This document shows, one piece after another, positions 120-10,639 of a stretch of DNA of 64,000 nt. Origin of the DNA: Pseudarthrobacter oxydans (GTDB taxonomy: Bacteria > Actinomycetota > Actinomycetes > Actinomycetales > Micrococcaceae); assembly GCF_034258515.1 (NCBI RefSeq), contig NZ_CP139438.1:1674001-1738000 (forward strand), read 5' to 3'. Within the stretch, counting starts at the first letter, position 1. The number at the start of each line of letters is the position of its first letter. The translations under genes were made by a program, and so were the position numbers. Under the pieces are notes generated by a model that did not search any database, was not told where the DNA came from, and worked only from the letters and a program-made list of their open reading frames with translations.

Positions 120-788
120 ATGGACGCCAGGCTGGCCCTGCGGGCAGTGGATATCACAACTGATGTCCGCTGCCCGCAGGCGCATCAGGACGGCCCGGAA
201 GGGTTCGTCCCTGAACGTGCAGAGGAACTGCGGGCCGCGGCCCTGGAGCCGGCTGCTGCGCAGCGTTTCCTGGCCGGCAGGGCAGCGCTGCGCCGTTTTG
301 CGGGCGACGTGCTCGATCTGCCGGCATCGCAGCTGCGGTCCTCCTACTCCTGTCCCCAATGCGGCTCCGGACCCGGACTCTCCCACGGCCGGCCGGGCTT
401 CACGCACCGGGGCCGGCGCTTGCCCCTGTTGCTGAGCATGGCCAGGACCGGCAACTGGGTGCTGCTCGCCGCGGTTACGTCGCCGGGCAGGGGAGAACGG
501 CTGGGGGTGGACGCCGAAAATCCGGAACGGCTCGGCTTCGAGGGGTTCGACGCCGTGGCGTTGTCCCGCTCGGAGGAGCTCACCCTCGCGGGGCTGGAAG
601 GAAAGGCGCTCCTGCGCGAACGTGCCCGGCTCTGGAGCCGGAAGGAGGCCTGGCTCAAAATGACCGGCGAGGGGCTTCGGGTGGATCCCCGCACGGTAGC
701 CGCGTTGGAGGAACCTGGAGTACAGGACCTGCCGTCTGCTGCTACGGGGCTGCCGGCGTCGCTGGTCGCCGCCGTCGCCTTGGGCTAA
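120..788 (+). CDS. Sfp-type 4'-phosphopantetheinyl transferase
   Basis: A 222-residue protein with both signatures of the Sfp-type PPTase superfamily: RLGVDAENPER (Mg/CoA-binding GVDxE) near residues 127-137 and LWSRKEAWLKMTGEGL (WxxKEAxxK) near 170-185. Such enzymes move phosphopantetheine from CoA onto the conserved serine of carrier domains. A carrier-containing synthetase lies 1.4 kb away on the opposite strand, so this PPTase is the natural candidate to activate it. That link is inference from proximity. The last four bases overlap the end of the convergent aminopeptidase gene. The ATG at 120 has only a weak ribosome-binding site, so the start is provisional. Confidence 0.85.
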   Translation: MDARLALRAVDITTDVRCPQAHQDGPEGFVPERAEELRAAALEPAAAQRFLAGRAALRRFAGDVLDLPASQLRSSYSCPQCGSGPGLSHGRPGFTHRGRRLPLLLSMARTGNWVLLAAVTSPGRGERLGVDAENPERLGFEGFDAVALSRSEELTLAGLEGKALLRERARLWSRKEAWLKMTGEGLRVDPRTVAALEEPGVQDLPSAATGLPASLVAAVALG

Positions 789-2167
789 CCCCGCCGGCTT
801 CGCGGGGCAGGCAACGGCGGGAGCGCGAGCTCGAAGAGCCAGGGGTGGAGCACTGCTTCGGCGTCGATGCCCGCTACGCCGTTCGCCATCAGGATGAAGT
901 CGGCCGTTGAGACCGAGCCGTGGCGGTGGGTCCTGGTCCATTCCTGCAACAGGGTGAAGAACGCAAGGTCCCCGCAATGCATGCGCAGTGCGTGCAGCGC
1001 CAAGGCCCCGCGCTTATAGACACGGTCGTCAAACATCAGGGCCGGTCCGGGGTCGCCGATGAGCAGGTCCTGCCCGGCGGCGGAAAGCCTGCGCCAGGCC
1101 GCGGCCGCCCTGTCCTGGGCGGTCATCACTCCGGCCGCCTCGGACCAGATCCATTCGGCGTAGCAGGCAAACCCCTCGTGCAGCCAAATGTCGTGCCACC
1201 CGCGGACTGTCAGGGAGTTTCCGAACCACTGGTGCGAGAGTTCATGGGCGATCAGGCGCTGGGCATCCCAGTCCAGGCTGAGGTGGTTGCGGCCCAGAAT
1301 GGCCATGGTCTGGGCTTCCAGCGGAATTTCCAGGACATCGTCGGCCACCACAACCGTGTACTCGGAAAATGGGTAAGGACCAAAGCACCTGACGAAGGTG
1401 CGCATCATGTCGGGCTGGAGGCGCAGCCCCTGGCGGGCAGCCCCTGCCAGTGCGGGCGGGACGGCCGCGGTCTGGAGCACGCCTCCCGGAGCGTCACCCG
1501 GGTCAAGGACCAGGGATTCATACCGCCCGATCTGGACCGTGGCCAGGTAGGTGGCCATGGGCTCCTCCTGCTCGTAGGTCCAGGTCTCCCGGCTGGCCCT
1601 GGTGCTGTGCCCTACCAGTCGGCCGTTGCAGACGGCACGGTAATTGGCGTCGGTAGTTACCGTGATCCGGTAGCTTGCCTTGCTCCGCGGATGGTCGTTG
1701 CACGGAAACCAGGACGGTGCGCCGTTGGGCTGGCCAGCCACCAGCACGCCGTCGGTCAGTTCCTCCCAGCCCACCTCGCCCCACAGCCCGCGGCGCGGCG
1801 CAGGATTGCCCTCATAACGGACGTCCAGGGTGAACGTTTCGCCGACGGCGAGGCCGGCGTCGAGCTGGACCACCAGTTGTTCAGCGCGCTGCGAGAACCT
1901 CCGCACGCGCCGCCCGTTCAGCTGCACCTTAACGGCGCGAAGGCCTGCCAGGTCCAGGACGACGGCGGACGCCTGCCGGGCCGCCGTGGCGTGAATGACG
2001 GCACGGCCGCTGAGCCGGTTGGCGGCCATCCGGTAGTCGAGGTCCACTTCGTAGCGGGACACGCGGTACGAGTCGCTACCGTGGCCCGGCATGTAGGGGT
2101 CGGACAGCACTCCCGGGATGGCTGTCCCGGCGGCAGGTCCGGAGGTTGCTGGTTCAGGAAGACTCAT
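785..2167 (-). CDS. M1-family zinc metallopeptidase (short aminopeptidase)
   Basis: Gluzincin of family M1: the zinc motif HELSHQWFGN is followed by WLHEGFACYAEW, supplying the HExxH-x18-E ligands. The GxMEN-type substrate motif is divergent (EIPLEAQTMAIL). At 460 residues it is about half the length of PepN and lacks the large helical C-terminal domain, as in short actinobacterial M1 enzymes. The ATG at 2167 is preferred because GAGG lies 9 nt upstream; an in-frame TTG at 2182 has no such site. It begins 34 bp after the Pls-like synthetase on the same strand, so the two are probably co-transcribed. Zn aminopeptidases are known to cleave epsilon-poly-lysine in producer strains, so trimming or self-protection is a plausible but unproven role. 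Confidence 0.88.
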   Translation of the reverse strand: MSLPEPATSGPAAGTAIPGVLSDPYMPGHGSDSYRVSRYEVDLDYRMAANRLSGRAVIHATAARQASAVVLDLAGLRAVKVQLNGRRVRRFSQRAEQLVVQLDAGLAVGETFTLDVRYEGNPAPRRGLWGEVGWEELTDGVLVAGQPNGAPSWFPCNDHPRSKASYRITVTTDANYRAVCNGRLVGHSTRASRETWTYEQEEPMATYLATVQIGRYESLVLDPGDAPGGVLQTAAVPPALAGAARQGLRLQPDMMRTFVRCFGPYPFSEYTVVVADDVLEIPLEAQTMAILGRNHLSLDWDAQRLIAHELSHQWFGNSLTVRGWHDIWLHEGFACYAEWIWSEAAGVMTAQDRAAAAWRRLSAAGQDLLIGDPGPALMFDDRVYKRGALALHALRMHCGDLAFFTLLQEWTRTHRHGSVSTADFILMANGVAGIDAEAVLHPWLFELALPPLPAPRSRRG

Positions 2168-2201
2168 GGACGCGGGCCTCAATCACAAACGTGGCGGGTA
2201 C

Positions 2202-5200
2202 TTACTTCGGGCGGGGTGCAGGAACGCCGGGGCCGGCCCATGGACTGACGGGGTTGCCCATCCAGTAGGTTCCGGCCGGAACCGTTTCCCCGCGCATGAC
2301 CAGGGAAGCCGGTCCCACCGTTCCGCCGTGGCCGATGCGCGCCTGCGGGAGGATGACACCGTGCGGTCCCATCGTTGCGCCGTCTTCGAGCGTAACAGGG
2401 CCGATGCTCATGATGCGGTCGTGGAACAGGTGCGTTTGCACCACGCAGCCGCGGTTGACCGTGGAGTTCGCTCCCAGGGTGACAAGGTCGGCTTCCGGCA
2501 GCCAGTAGCTCTCGCACCATGTTCCGGGGCCGATCCTGGCGCCCAGTCCCCGCAACCACCACACAAGGGCCGGCGTGCCGGTGGCGGCCCGGGCGAACCA
2601 CGGCGCGCTGACCATTTCTATGAACGTATCCACCACTTCGTTCCGCCAGATGAACGAGCTCCACAGCGGGTGTTCCCCGGCCCTGATACGGCCGATGAGC
2701 AGCCATTTGGCAACCACGGCACTGGCCGCGGCCACGGCACCGGCCAGCAGCATCACTATGCCTCCCAGCAGGGCCGCCGCGGCGTAGTTGAAGGATGCGG
2801 CGAGCCAGTCCAGGGCCAGCAGCACGCCCGCGGCAAGGCCCACAGTGAGCGCCACGGGAACGAACCGGCAGGCCTCCCACAACGCACGTGCCAGCTTCAG
2901 CCTGGGAGGCGGCCGGTAGGTGAGCGAACTGTCCGAGGCGATGGCCGTGCGCCGCAGCCGGACAGGAGGGCTGCCCAGCCAGGAGGTTCCGGACTTGGCC
3001 TTGGACGGCGTCGCGGACAGCACGGCCACCAGCGAGTTCTTGGGAACATTACGGCCGGCTCCCGTCATGCCCGAGTTGCCCAGGAAGGAGCGCTTGCCGA
3101 TCTTGGCCGGGGCGATCCGCAACCAGCCGCCGCCAAGCTCGTAGGAGGCCACCATCGTGTCATCCGCCAGGAACGCGCCCTCTCCCACGGTGGTCATCTT
3201 GGGAACCAGCAGCACGGTGGAGGCCTCGACGTTCTTGCCGACTTTTGCTCCCAGCAGGCGAAGCCAGACGGGCGTGAAGAGGCTGGCGTAGACGGGAAAC
3301 AGGAGGTCCCGGGCCAGGTCCAGCACACGCTCGGTAGCCCAGATCTGCCAGCCGATCCGGCTCCGCACGCGGTAGTAGCCTTCACGCAGGCCCAGGCCGA
3401 GCAGTCGGGTGGTTCCCAGGACCAGCAGCAGGTTGGCGGTGAACCAGGCCAGGGCGGCAAGGGGCAGGGAGCCCAGCAGGGGAAGCCAGGCCTCGGACAG
3501 GGAGCTGTGGCCCCTGATGAACAGGAAGGCCACCAGGCAGGCAGCGCCTGCGGAAAGGTAGGGGATCATGGCCAGCAGTGCGCTGGCGGCCGCGAAGGCG
3601 GTAAACCAGAGCCGGGCAAGCATGGCGCCGGTGTCCGGCTGGGCCGGCCAGTTCTGTTTCGCCTTGCCCCGGCGTTCTGCCGGCGAGCCGGCCACAACCT
3701 GGCCCGCCTTGACCTTGCCCAGGACCGCCGAACCGGGCTCCACCTGGCCGCCGGCGCCGATGCTGGCGCCGGGCATCAGGGTGCTCCGGGCCCCCACGGT
3801 GGCGCCTGCGCCGATCCGGATGGCTCCGATGTGCACGCTGTCACCGTCGATCCACCATCCCGAAAGGTCGACTTCGGGCTCCACGTTGGCTCCGGTGCCC
3901 AGCGACAGGAGCCCGGTCACCGGCGGCAGCGAGTGCAGGTTAACGTTGCTCCCGATCTTCGCGCCGAGGGCGCGGGCGTAGTACGGCACCCAGGGTGCGC
4001 TCGCCAGGCTGACCGCTCCCGCAAGGTCCTGGATCTGCTCAGCCAGCCAGAGCCGGAGATGGACTTTCCCCGATCTGGGATAGGTGCCCGGCTTGACGTT
4101 CCGGAGCAGGATCCGGGCTGCTGCGACGGAGAGGAGCATGCGACCGGCAGGGCTGACGAACACCAGCCAGGACGCACCCACCCACCACCAGGACACCGTG
4201 GCTGCGGCGGTGAAGCCGGCCAGTCCTGCCAGCAGGTTATTGGCCGCCATCAGGTAGGTCAGCCACCGCATGCCCACGAGGATGTGCAGCGGGACGCCCA
4301 TCAACGTCTGGAAAACCTGCGACTTCCGGGCCGTGGGCCGGACAGTTCGGACCTCGGCAGGGCCGGCGGGAGTGCCGTCCGGCAGTGACTGCCGGGCCAC
4401 ATCGATCAGGGCCCCGACGCGCGGCGTCGCGTAGATGTCTGCCACTGTGATGGTGGGGTAGCGGACGCGCAGCGCAGAGACGAGCTGCGCGGCGGCAAGG
4501 GACCCGCCCCCGGCCGCAAAGAAATCCGCGTCGAGGCTGGTTGCGTTACTGCCAAGGACCGCGCCCCACTGCTCGACGATCCACTGGGCGTCATCGGGAA
4601 GGTTCAGCGGGGCCTGGCCTGCTTCGTCGGCTCCGCTGCCGGTGAGCGGCCAGGGCAGGGCATGGCGGTCCACCTTGCCGCTGGTCTTGGTAGGCAGGGA
4701 GTCGACGACGGCCAGCAGCGGAATCAGCGCAGCCGGAAGGCTGTCAGCGAGGAGCTTGCGGGCGGCGGCCAGGTCGGGCCCAGGAGGTCCCGCCGGCGCA
4801 AGGTACCCCACCAGGATCTGGTTCCCCGCCGCCGTCGTCCGGACGGCGGCAGCAGCGCCCGCGATGCCCGGCAGGGCCTGCAGGGCTGCGTCGACTTCGC
4901 CGAGTTCGATCCTGCGGCCACCCAGCTTGACCTGCTCATCGGCACGGCCCATGAAGATGAGGCCCTCGGCTTCGTAGCGGACGAGGTCCCCCGAGCGGTA
5001 GGCGCGGTCCCAGCCGAGCGTGGGAAACGACGCGTACTTGTCGGCATCCTTGGCCGCGTCAAGGTAGCGGGCAAGCCCTACGCCGCCGATGATGAGTTCG
5101 CCAACGCCTCCCTCGGGAACGGGAATCCCGCCCTCGTCCACCACAGCCAGGTCCCAGCCATCCAGCGGACGGCCGATCCGCACCGGACCCGGCCCGCCCA

Positions 5201-6272
5201 GCGGTGCAGCGCAGGCCACCACGGTGGCCTCGGTGGGGCCATACGTGTTCCACACTTCCCTGCCGTCAACGGCCAGCCGCTCCGCCAGTTCCGGCGGGCA
5301 TGCCTCCCCGCCGAAGATCAGCAACCGGACGTTCTCGAGCGCTTCGGCGGGCCAGAGGGCTGCCAAGGTGGGGACCGTGGACACAACGGTGATCCCGTGG
5401 CTGATGAGCCAGGGGCCCAGGTCCATCCCTGTTCGCACCAGGGCGCGGGGGGCGGGGACCAGGCAGGCACCGTGCCGCCAGGCAAGCCACATTTCCTCGC
5501 AGGACGCGTCGAACGCCACCGACAGCCCCGCCAGCACCCGGTCTGCCGTTCCGATCGGCTCCGCCGTGAGGAAGAGCCGGGCTTCGGCGTCAACGAAGGC
5601 GGCAGCAGAACGGTGCCGTACGGCAACGCCCTTCGGCGTTCCGGTTGAGCCGGACGTGAAGATCACCCAGGCGTCGTCGTCCACATCCGCGGTCCGGGCG
5701 GCGGGGTGGGGCGTGGGCCTGCTGCCGTTGAGGGTGATGCCCTTTTCCGTGACCACGGCGGCTACCCCGGCTTCAGCGAAGACGAGCCTGGCGCGCTCTT
5801 CGGGATCGTCCGCGTCGACGGGGACGTAGGCGGCGCCGATGAGCAGGATGGCAAGGATGGAAACGTACAACCTGTTGGTGCCGGAGGGGATCCGCACGCC
5901 GATCCTGTCGCCTGCGCCCAGTCCGGCGTGGTGCATCGCCCGCCCGGCGGAGCGTACTTCCGCCAGCAGCTGGGCGTAGCTCAGGGACCTGCGGCCGTCG
6001 TCGAGGGCTGAGGCATCGGGAAACCGTTCCGCGGTCTCCAGCAGGATGTCCACCAGCGTCCGTGCCGGGGGAGCGGCAGCGGCGCCGGCCAGCTGCGGCT
6101 GGTGGCGGGCCTGCTCCCGGATCTTGTCAGGGGCCCGTTCCGGGGCTGGGTCCGCGGCATAGCCGTCGGCTGCCCGGCTGCCGCTCTGTTGCTCGGTCAC
6201 CTGTGCAGTGTGCCGGGGCAAGATGAACGGGAAGTGTCCTGGTCTGCCTGCCGTCCACCCGGTGTTCGACAT
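2202..6272 (-). CDS. Pls/PosA-type single-module nonribosomal peptide synthetase (poly-amino-acid synthetase)
   Basis: A 1356-residue membrane-embedded synthetase. An adenylation domain (about 70-545) shows FTSGSTGTPKG (205-215), FDASCEEMW (254-262), YGPTE (344-348), YRSGDL (425-430) and the catalytic lysine in SGKVDR (531-536). A carrier domain follows, with the phosphopantetheine serine in FFAAGGGSL (Ser591). The remainder alternates hydrophobic membrane segments (about 655-725, 890-970, 1130-1200) with three soluble blocks of hexapeptide-repeat character (for example IGAGATVGARSTLMPGASIG). This is the A-T-TM-C architecture of Streptomyces albulus epsilon-poly-lysine synthetase, which has about the same length; there the tandem C-terminal domains form the iterative peptide bonds. 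There is no thioesterase. The pocket residues read D-A-E-S-I-G-T-V-V-K by alignment to GrsA. The gene lies between a quinone oxidoreductase and an M1 peptidase. The start is uncertain: ATG 6272 or GTG 6200. Confidence 0.9.
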   Translation of the reverse strand: MSNTGWTAGRPGHFPFILPRHTAQVTEQQSGSRAADGYAADPAPERAPDKIREQARHQPQLAGAAAAPPARTLVDILLETAERFPDASALDDGRRSLSYAQLLAEVRSAGRAMHHAGLGAGDRIGVRIPSGTNRLYVSILAILLIGAAYVPVDADDPEERARLVFAEAGVAAVVTEKGITLNGSRPTPHPAARTADVDDDAWVIFTSGSTGTPKGVAVRHRSAAAFVDAEARLFLTAEPIGTADRVLAGLSVAFDASCEEMWLAWRHGACLVPAPRALVRTGMDLGPWLISHGITVVSTVPTLAALWPAEALENVRLLIFGGEACPPELAERLAVDGREVWNTYGPTEATVVACAAPLGGPGPVRIGRPLDGWDLAVVDEGGIPVPEGGVGELIIGGVGLARYLDAAKDADKYASFPTLGWDRAYRSGDLVRYEAEGLIFMGRADEQVKLGGRRIELGEVDAALQALPGIAGAAAAVRTTAAGNQILVGYLAPAGPPGPDLAAARKLLADSLPAALIPLLAVVDSLPTKTSGKVDRHALPWPLTGSGADEAGQAPLNLPDDAQWIVEQWGAVLGSNATSLDADFFAAGGGSLAAAQLVSALRVRYPTITVADIYATPRVGALIDVARQSLPDGTPAGPAEVRTVRPTARKSQVFQTLMGVPLHILVGMRWLTYLMAANNLLAGLAGFTAAATVSWWWVGASWLVFVSPAGRMLLSVAAARILLRNVKPGTYPRSGKVHLRLWLAEQIQDLAGAVSLASAPWVPYYARALGAKIGSNVNLHSLPPVTGLLSLGTGANVEPEVDLSGWWIDGDSVHIGAIRIGAGATVGARSTLMPGASIGAGGQVEPGSAVLGKVKAGQVVAGSPAERRGKAKQNWPAQPDTGAMLARLWFTAFAAASALLAMIPYLSAGAACLVAFLFIRGHSSLSEAWLPLLGSLPLAALAWFTANLLLVLGTTRLLGLGLREGYYRVRSRIGWQIWATERVLDLARDLLFPVYASLFTPVWLRLLGAKVGKNVEASTVLLVPKMTTVGEGAFLADDTMVASYELGGGWLRIAPAKIGKRSFLGNSGMTGAGRNVPKNSLVAVLSATPSKAKSGTSWLGSPPVRLRRTAIASDSSLTYRPPPRLKLARALWEACRFVPVALTVGLAAGVLLALDWLAASFNYAAAALLGGIVMLLAGAVAAASAVVAKWLLIGRIRAGEHPLWSSFIWRNEVVDTFIEMVSAPWFARAATGTPALVWWLRGLGARIGPGTWCESYWLPEADLVTLGANSTVNRGCVVQTHLFHDRIMSIGPVTLEDGATMGPHGVILPQARIGHGGTVGPASLVMRGETVPAGTYWMGNPVSPWAGPGVPAPRPK

Positions 6273-6317: not shown

Positions 6318-7283
6318 CTACGGAACCAGGACCACCTTGCCGGTGGTGCGGCGCCCTTCAAGGTCGCGGTGCGCCTGGGCGGCCTCGGCCAGGGGATAGG
6401 TTCCGCCCACCCTCACTTTCAGGCTGCCGTCGGCGGCGGCGGCGAAGATTTCGTCCGAGCGCCAGCGCCGTTCCGCCGCGTCCAGGAGGTGGTGCGCGAT
6501 CGTGGGCCGGGTCAGGAAGAGCGAGCCGCCGGCGTTGAGCCGTTGCGGATCCACCGGGGGAACGGGACCCGAGGCGGCGCCGAAAAGCACCAGCGTCCCC
6601 CTGATGCGCAGGGCGGCCAGCGAGCCGTCGAAGGTGTCCTTTCCCACGCCGTCGTACACGACGTCGGCGCCCCTGCCGCCGGTGAGGTCCCTGACGGCGT
6701 CGGTAAATCCGCTGTAGCGCAGCACATGGTCCGCGCCGGCGTCGAGGGCGAGCCGCTCCTTTTCATCCGTGGACACCGTGGTGACCACGGTGGCGCCCTT
6801 GGCTTTGAGCAGCTGGATCATCAGCAGGCCAACACCGCCCGCGCCAGCGTGGAGCAGTACAGTGTGCCCCGGTTCCACCTTGAAGGTGGAGTTGATCAGG
6901 AAGTGGGCGGTCATTCCCTGCAGCGGGAGGGCGGCGGCGGTGAGGTCGTCGAGTCCCTCGGGCACTGGCAGGGCCTTGTCTGCATCCACCACGGCGTAGC
7001 CGGCGTAGCAGCTGGTGCCCTCGGCGGTGGCCACGCGGTCTCCTTCGGCGAATCCCGTCACTCCTTCGCCCAGTCCGGCAACCGTGCCCGCTGCTTCGGA
7101 ACCCGGCGTGAAGGGGTACGGGACCTTGTACGCGCCGCTGCGCTTGTAGGTGTCGATGAAATTCACTCCCACCGCACCCACTTTGAGCAGCAACTGGCCA
7201 GGGCCGGGGACCGGCCGGTCCACCTCCGCGTATTCGAGGACTTCCGGGCCGCCTGCCTGCCGTGCGACGATTGCATGCGTCAT
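6318..7283 (-). CDS. zinc-free quinone oxidoreductase (MDR superfamily)
   Basis: A 321-residue medium-chain reductase of the QOR/zeta-crystallin type. It begins with a GroES-like domain (VNFIDTYKRSGAYKVPYPFTPGSEAAG) and continues with an NADPH-binding Rossmann fold (HAGAGGVGLLMIQLLKAKGATVV). It lacks the catalytic and structural zinc cysteines of alcohol dehydrogenases. The family reduces quinones with NADPH, usually by one electron. The gene is divergent from argC and lies 45 bp upstream of the Pls-like synthetase on the same strand, so the two may share a transcript. Whether it takes part in the synthetase's pathway cannot be told from sequence. Confidence 0.9.
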   Translation of the reverse strand: MTHAIVARQAGGPEVLEYAEVDRPVPGPGQLLLKVGAVGVNFIDTYKRSGAYKVPYPFTPGSEAAGTVAGLGEGVTGFAEGDRVATAEGTSCYAGYAVVDADKALPVPEGLDDLTAAALPLQGMTAHFLINSTFKVEPGHTVLLHAGAGGVGLLMIQLLKAKGATVVTTVSTDEKERLALDAGADHVLRYSGFTDAVRDLTGGRGADVVYDGVGKDTFDGSLAALRIRGTLVLFGAASGPVPPVDPQRLNAGGSLFLTRPTIAHHLLDAAERRWRSDEIFAAAADGSLKVRVGGTYPLAEAAQAHRDLEGRRTTGKVVLVP

Positions 7284-7383
7284 GGCTCTCCTTCCCCGGG
7301 CCTGGCCTTTCCAGCCCCGGCTGCACGATCCATCCTAGGGAAACCGAAGGGAAACCCGGTGCCGAGGCAAACATCCAGGATCT

Positions 7384-9640
<2,257 letters not shown>

Positions 9641-9679
9641 GGCCTGTCCCCGGCAGAAACCGTTGTGGAAAGTGACAGC

Positions 9680-10639
9680 ATGAACACCCAGACGCGTGAA
9701 ACCACCAGCATGTCCGACGCCCAGGACAAGGCAGCAACCCTGATCGAGGCCCTGCCCTGGATCCAGCGCTTCGCCGGCACCACCATGGTGATCAAGTACG
9801 GCGGCAACGCCATGGTCAACGATGATCTCCGCCGCGCCTTCGCCGAGGACATCGTCTTTCTCCACCACGTGGGCATCCACCCCGTGGTGGTCCACGGCGG
9901 CGGTCCGCAGATCAACTCGATGCTGGGCAGGCTCGGCATCGAGTCTGAGTTCAAGGGCGGCCTCCGGGTCACGACGCCCGAGGCCATGGACGTTGTCCGC
10001 ATGGTCCTCACCGGCCAGGTGGGGCGTGAGCTGGTGGGACTGATCAACTCGCACGGCCCCTACGCGGTGGGCATGTCCGGAGAAGACGGCGGGCTGCTGC
10101 GCGCCGTCCGGACGGGCACTGTGGTGGACGGCGAAGAAGTGGACCTCGGGCTGGTAGGCGAGGTGGTCGGCGTCGACCCCGCAGGCATCGAGGACATCCT
10201 CGGCGCCGGCCGCATTCCGGTGATCTCCACAGTTGCCCCGGAGATCGTGGACGGCGGAGAAGGCGTGGCCGGCACCGCCCGCTTCCAGCCCACCGGCCAG
10301 GTCCTCAACGTCAACGCGGACACCGCCGCGGCGGCCGTCGCCTCGGCGCTGGGCGCCTCCAAGCTGGTGATCCTGACCGACGTCGAAGGGCTGTACGCCA
10401 ACTGGCCGGACAAGTCCTCCCTCATTTCCTCCCTCACGGCCTCGGAGCTGCGGGACATGCTTCCGCGGCTCGAATCAGGCATGATCCCGAAGATGGCGGC
10501 CTGCCTGAAGGCCATTGACGAGGGTGTGGAACGCGCGCACATCGTGGACGGGCGCCTGCCCCATTCCATGCTTCTTGAAACATTCACGACGGCGGGCATT
10601 GGCACCCAGGTAGTCCCGGACGAGGAGATCAACGCATGA
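9680..10639 (+). CDS. argB: acetylglutamate kinase
   Basis: Amino-acid kinase fold enzyme that phosphorylates N-acetylglutamate. Visible motifs are VIKYGGNAM (phosphate loop), [11 protein letters not shown] (substrate site) and ILTDVEGLY near the nucleotide site. The long mobile N-terminal helix (about 30 residues before the core) is typical of hexameric, arginine-inhibited NAGK, so feedback inhibition is likely. ATG 9680 with GGAAAG upstream is chosen; GTG 9665 and ATG 9710 are in-frame alternatives. It lies 39 bp after argJ and overlaps argD by four bases. Confidence 0.96.

Follow-up and report, generated by a model that had tools for sequence, protein, structure and literature searches.

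Epsilon-polylysine is a natural food preservative. Its role in nature is less well understood (PMC8117764). The closest described systems are Streptomyces albulus Pls with its degrading enzyme PldII; the pls gene of Corynebacterium variabile, which yields epsilon-polylysine in S. coelicolor, a host reported to lack a pls gene of its own (PMC8117764); and PosA, the delta-poly-L-ornithine synthetase of Acinetobacter baumannii, whose terminal domain shares 20% identity with its counterpart in S. albulus Pls (PMC10522769). Pls homologues with a lysine pocket have been recorded in Arthrobacter, Glutamicibacter, Micrococcus and other genera (PMC8117764), and antiSMASH clusters of the type 'NAPAA' in Arthrobacter (PMC9228311), Pseudarthrobacter (PMC12025171), Paenarthrobacter (PMC11719660) and every one of nine Antarctic isolates of Micrococcaceae and Dermatophilaceae (PMC11078813). 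Here we describe a three-gene cassette at positions 120 to 6,272 of a 64,000-nucleotide stretch of Pseudarthrobacter oxydans DNA (NZ_CP139438.1, positions 1,674,001 to 1,738,000 of the forward strand), referred to as the window. An earlier account made from the letters of the window, here called the sequence-only reading, held that no such product was commonly linked with the genus; the Arthrobacter homologues in PMC8117764 and the 'NAPAA' clusters of PMC9228311, PMC12025171 and PMC11078813 contradict this.

We consider it highly probable, from comparison with characterised enzymes, that the locus is a canonical epsilon-poly-L-lysine synthetase cassette of the Pls-PldII type with a co-inherited 4'-phosphopantetheinyl transferase (PPTase), and its gene set very probably makes epsilon-polylysine. 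The coordinates, lengths, strand layout and carrier serine given by the sequence-only reading all agree with the list of open reading frames and a motif scan. The cassette comprises the following features:

120 to 788, + strand: Sfp-type PPTase of 222 amino acids, presumed activator of the Pls carrier domain (open reading frame, PF01648, WSRKEAWLK)
785 to 2182, - strand: M1 zinc peptidase with two domains, resembling PldII in family and gene position (open reading frame of 465 amino acids, M1 Pfam domains)
1175 to 1246, - strand: M1 zinc site HEXXH-X18-E, residues 313 to 336 (motif scan)
2202 to 6272, - strand: Pls/PosA-family synthetase of 1356 amino acids, predicted to make epsilon-poly-L-lysine (open reading frame, TIGR02353, 7wew, pocket code)
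4641 to 6101, - strand: adenylation (A) domain, residues 58 to 544, with the pocket DAESIGTVVK (7wew match)
4401 to 4586, - strand: carrier (thiolation, T) domain, residues 563 to 624, with Ser591 at 4500 to 4502 (Pfam, motif scan)
2247 to 4316, - strand: TIGR02353 terminal membrane domain, residues 653 to 1342, with hydrophobic segments and hexapeptide-repeat-like stretches (profile match)

Membership of the Pls/PosA family, as the sequence-only reading had proposed, was confirmed with TIGR02353, which matched residues 653 to 1342 of the synthetase over its whole length (model positions 1 to 695 of 695) at 697.9 bits against a cut-off of 423.1. The N-terminal part contains an AMP-binding domain (PF00501, residues 79 to 402) and a PP-binding domain (PF00550, residues 563 to 624), in which the carrier motif GGGSL at residue 588 places the phosphopantetheine serine at Ser591. 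No canonical condensation or thioesterase domain was found in the synthetase in a Pfam search at E up to 0.001, the only matches being PF00501, PF00550 and a Hexapep match of 23.4 bits, below its cut-off of 27. Hydropathy peaks in the C-terminal half lie near residues 680 to 723, 882 to 921, 928 to 962, 990 to 1009 and 1130 to 1198. Among solved structures the nearest is 7wew, the A domain of S. albulus Pls (E 1.4e-189).

The substrate prediction comes from the adenylation pocket. Its ten residues (D255, A256, E259, S298, I319, G321, T343, V351, V352 and K533, reading DAESIGTVVK) were assigned with the PheA numbering and with the code published for PosA. All ten are identical in the alignment with 7wew. 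The code of the window recurs unchanged in all 105 intact Pls homologues considered, which are those among 160 loci (L040 to L199) whose Pls frame runs without interruption for >1200 amino acids; the loci were chosen by similarity to Pls or by site and do not form an independent sample. According to PMC10522769, the source of the PosA code, the pocket of this ornithine enzyme reads DMEHNGTVSK, and position 2 is Ala in lysine enzymes and Phe in enzymes for shorter diamino acids. Since the pocket is like that of S. albulus Pls, with Ala at position 2, L-lysine is the expected substrate, and the pocket code therefore narrows the predicted product to epsilon-poly-L-lysine. A different cationic homopolymer, built from ornithine, diaminobutyrate, diaminopropionate or beta-lysine, is very unlikely: the family does make several such polymers (PMC10522769), and three genomes carry a second Pls-like enzyme with the pocket DFECLSVVTK, whose Phe is linked to PDAP/PDAB synthetases (PMC10522769), but the Ala at position 2, the complete match to S. 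albulus Pls and the divergent PosA code all argue against it for the enzyme in the window. Other diamino acids were thus ruled out by the pocket code as the leading substrate reading.

Further Pls relatives were encountered in the genus. The second Pls-like enzyme, of about 1430 to 1460 amino acids, lies at loci L214, L215 and L216 (genomes G072, G079 and G042) and is 28 to 29% identical in two of these genomes and 34% identical over the adenylation part in L216; its code suggests that a diaminobutyrate or diaminopropionate polymer may be made in some genomes of the genus. Another Pls, about 50% identical to that of the window and with the pocket DAESIGTVIK, occupies a different neighbourhood at L211, L212 and L213 (G018, G091 and G043), where no M1 or PPTase match was detected in the 15 kb examined. 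At L217 (5207 to 10221, + strand) and L218 (3027 to 8100, - strand), from G128 and G135, respectively, the matches to the Pls terminal domain and to the adenylation and carrier domains are separate and adjacent, with the terminal domain first, and the pocket begins DI (in a weak alignment), unlike a diamino acid code; these are apparently split Pls relatives.

By analogy with the characterised relatives, the PPTase (120 to 788) would attach phosphopantetheine to Ser591 of the synthetase, the A domain would activate L-lysine and load it onto the carrier, and the membrane domain would link lysines from alpha-carboxyl to epsilon-amine and export the polymer. Hydrolysis of the polymer, for self-protection or turnover, may then fall to the M1 peptidase, whose translation is possibly coupled to that of pls as has been reported in S. 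albulus. It is conceivable that lysine is loaded in this way and then passed to a cell-surface or lipid acceptor or into short capped oligomers, so that the product would not be free polylysine. Such a scheme would fit the model of the terminal domain as beta-helices packed as in acyltransferases (PMC10522769), the finding that native production can be silent (PMC8117764) and the presence of another A-T-membrane acyltransferase-like fusion in the same genome (L038). However, with characterised Pls enzymes free polymer has been obtained on heterologous expression (PMC8117764) or in vitro (PMC8506220), and we regard this alternative as very unlikely.

Homology also bears out the suggestion of the sequence-only reading that the neighbouring M1 peptidase belongs with the enzymes by which Streptomyces breaks down the polymer. 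Both PF01433 and PF17900 were found in the protein, together with the zinc site HELSH-X18-E at residue 313, and its best PDB match is 6a8z, a zinc metalloprotease of 474 residues. Translation probably starts at an ATG five codons into the frame, at position 2167, because the best database copies have the 460 amino acids that this start would give. The gap between pls and the M1 gene is 19 bp to the M1 frame and 34 bp to this probable ATG, and at its other end the M1 frame overlaps the end of the oppositely oriented PPTase gene by 4 bp. Among 80 named loci, the best of at least 595 matches, the M1 gene lies 3' of pls on the same strand in every case, with a gap of up to 2.2 kb (L090); these loci span Arthrobacter, Kocuria, Brevibacterium, Rhodococcus, Nocardia, Tsukamurella, Kribbella, Amycolatopsis and others. 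The name PldII was absent among the 120 matches listed of the 6867 for the M1 protein. By family, given that PldII is presumably a member of M1, and by gene position, we consider the enzyme to be PldII-type and predict that it hydrolyses epsilon-polylysine. PldII has been called an aminopeptidase and also an endo-type metallopeptidase (PMC9223678). Accounts of its effect, which bear on the trimming that the sequence-only reading had suggested, conflict: inactivation of Pld and PldII in Streptomyces left production and the degree of polymerisation unchanged (PMC8506220), whereas repression of pldII gave longer chains (PMC9223678).

The PPTase alongside Pls, which the sequence-only reading had also pointed out, is supported by homology and is inherited together with Pls. 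It matches PF01648 at 33.4 bits (cut-off 25) and carries the KEA motif within WSRKEAWLK at residue 172; its GVD region reads LGVDAE, where a motif pattern for GVD gave no match. PF01648 has two matches in the genome, this PPTase and an AcpS-size protein of 115 amino acids, which leaves the PPTase as the only non-AcpS member by this profile. The gene was detected beside pls in 31 of the 80 named loci, mostly in Micrococcaceae and in three Microbacteriaceae, some of the loci being incomplete. We presume the PPTase to be the cassette's own Pls activator, inherited with pls. Three other PP-binding proteins are encoded in the genome, one of them as part of the A-T-acyltransferase-like fusion. This protein of 849 amino acids (L038, 43 to 2592; G000:C1 near 3524676) combines AMP-binding and carrier domains with a sub-threshold Acyl_transf_3 match in an A-T-membrane-like arrangement, and it is a possible second client of the PPTase.

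The three genes are distributed together across the genus. TIGR02353 is matched above its cut-off in 124 of the 150 genus genomes sampled, and a comparison with the window Pls (E up to 1e-150) picks out the same 124. An M1 relative with an identity of 57% or more is present in all 124 Pls-positive genomes and in none of the 26 negatives; in the negative G137 the sole match is to a longer protein, at 41% identity. PPTase relatives (E up to 1e-8) are found in 123 of the 124 positives and again in no negative. In a sample of 149 genomes and 31 genera from the family, Pls at E up to 1e-250 was found in 79 genomes and 21 genera, and M1 at E up to 1e-100 in 67 genomes and 20 genera, none of these genomes being Pls-negative.

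Pls is under purifying selection. When the window was compared with five relatives by a simple counting method, in which synonymous sites are near saturation in the more distant pairs, dN/dS was 0.084 to 0.101 for Pls, 0.086 to 0.157 for M1 and 0.127 to 0.284 for the PPTase; the same five pairs gave 0.084 to 0.142 for Qor, 0.043 to 0.085 for ArgC and 0.054 to 0.082 for PheT. The cassette is missing from 26 of the 150 genus genomes, and in several relatives the Pls or M1 frame is split or broken by stops, as might be expected of a decaying, non-functional remnant. With full-length open frames in the window and a Pls dN/dS not far from that of PheT, we consider decay extremely unlikely here.

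The flanks of the cassette are as follows:

1 to 99, + strand: 3' end of pheT (phenylalanyl-tRNA synthetase beta), left flank; the reading frame, which spans 7355 to 10099 of locus L120, ends at window base 99
6318 to 7283, - strand: quinone oxidoreductase gene (qor), 45 bp upstream of pls (profile match)
7425 to 8477, + strand: argC, gene 1 of the arginine operon, right flank (open reading frame)

In the genome, pheS and then pheT lie immediately 5' of the cassette, the pheT stop being at window base 99. The sequence-only reading had placed an inserted cassette between pheT and the arginine operon. While pheT does directly precede it, qor, which had gone unlisted, separates it from argC, and the notion of insertion gave way on comparison of the interval among relatives. 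Located in 150 of 150 genus genomes, argC had its neighbourhood examined in 80 (all 26 negatives, 8 relocated cases and 46 others chosen by hand). The cassette was in place in 44 of these, including G027, where it lies about 16 kb from argC; only M1 and PPTase were present in 2, Pls was elsewhere in 8, and the cassette was absent in 26. In all 26 negatives pheT, qor and argC are found together, with a pheT-qor spacing of 77 to 337 bp in 22 genomes and 864 to 1646 bp in 4, as against 6.15 to 6.37 kb in 31 of 43 measured positives. Of the 44 genomes with the cassette in place, 38 have the PPTase gene near pls and M1. Where the cassette has a second site (the 8 relocated cases), pls, M1 and PPTase again lie within a few kb of each other, with the PPTase in two different orientations. 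Among the named loci, pls is also found between pheT and argC in Kocuria, Sinomonas, Psychromicrobium and Arthrobacter sp. UM1 (L065, L071, L055 and L119). The shared flanks rule out a recent insertion, and the cassette is therefore resident in the pheT-qor-argC interval, conserved there but repeatedly lost or exchanged as a unit, rather than a local arrival. It is of note that qor persists between pheT and argC without the cassette; where the cassette is present, qor and pls may share a transcript, as one might guess from the 45 bp between them.

A quick tree of the 80 genomes was built from PheS, PheT, ArgC and Qor; it includes five rows with under half of the columns, and negatives are over-represented because all 26 were sampled. 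On this tree the absent label needs 17 changes, at least 14 of them on well supported branches. Among 14 independent pairs differing in Pls, with traits coded from the genus-wide presence searches, M1 agrees in 14 and PPTase in 13, one pair not differing. The genes in this test are mostly adjacent, so that a single deletion can take out the whole set; less trivial support for a shared fate comes from the relocated cassettes and from the two genomes that retain M1 and PPTase at the site (G018 and G091). For 32 genomes with intact frames, distances correlate at 0.66 between Pls and PheT, 0.26 between Pls and ArgC and 0.65 between PheT and ArgC, and the nearest row by Pls is also the nearest by PheT in 19 of the 32. 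Pls distances thus track PheT and hardly ArgC, which leaves room for recombination. Loss or exchange of the whole cassette has occurred many times, and both are compatible with the data. Tentatively, polylysine synthesis in Arthrobacter and its kin might be, instead of a sporadic antibiotic trait, an old resident one under strong purifying selection, which behaves as a self-contained on/off module (synthetase, degrading peptidase and private PPTase) at a fixed site, lost and perhaps regained whole among related strains through recombination in the conserved pheT and qor flanks, so that populations mix producers and non-producers; we see this as possible, though speculative.

Several observations weigh against a co-inherited, polymer-producing cassette. 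In the synthetase, the hydropathy peaks fit three transmembrane pairs that are poorly resolved, weaker peaks occur in the A domain, and the topology comes from a plain scan. The PPTase match to its family is weak, and a PDB comparison at E up to 1 gave no relative. Pls-positive G088 has no PPTase relative at E up to 1e-8, some PPTase relatives are encoded elsewhere in the genome, and a number reach only 36 to 41% identity and are possibly not orthologous. The link with M1 is looser in the family sample, where 12 of the 79 Pls-positive genomes are without M1 at E up to 1e-100. In G018 and G091 the local pls is missing beside M1 and PPTase, and the only listed Pls, about 50% identical, is elsewhere. 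Finally, C. variabile itself gave no detectable polymer or Pls protein under the conditions tested, and its pls gene yielded no polymer in C. glutamicum (PMC8117764).

Relatives that cleanly have or lack the entire cassette at a single site offer natural pairs for testing the role of the polymer, and the cassette's own presumed activating enzyme could aid heterologous production. Compared with known systems, the locus has the type of terminal domain and, by prediction, the isopeptide chemistry in common with PosA, whereas PosA has the ornithine pocket and a single-gene operon (PMC10522769). It resembles C. variabile, by gene arrangement, in having a Pls and peptidase operon in a non-filamentous actinobacterium; the PPTase link seen in the window is not mentioned in the sections of PMC8117764 covered here. 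The NAPAA clusters of PMC9228311, PMC12025171 and PMC11719660 are possibly the same or an equivalent locus, and these papers, in the sections covered, give the cluster type only and do not describe a PPTase, a conserved site or loss as a unit. The open-access literature searched, which was sampled in part, likewise yielded no mention of a PPTase inherited with pls or of loss of the unit at pheT-argC. The locus is like S. albulus Pls and pldII in the A-T-membrane architecture, in the pocket code (only the A domain being compared) and in the order of pls followed by the gene for a degrading enzyme, for which translational coupling has been reported in S. albulus (PMC9223678). Unlike in S. albulus, a convergent PPTase gene adjoins that of the peptidase, qor precedes pls, and the site is pheT-argC. 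The enzyme type was thus already known and recorded in relatives, and what this locus adds is a modest evolutionary part, the co-inherited PPTase and the loss or exchange of the cassette as a unit.

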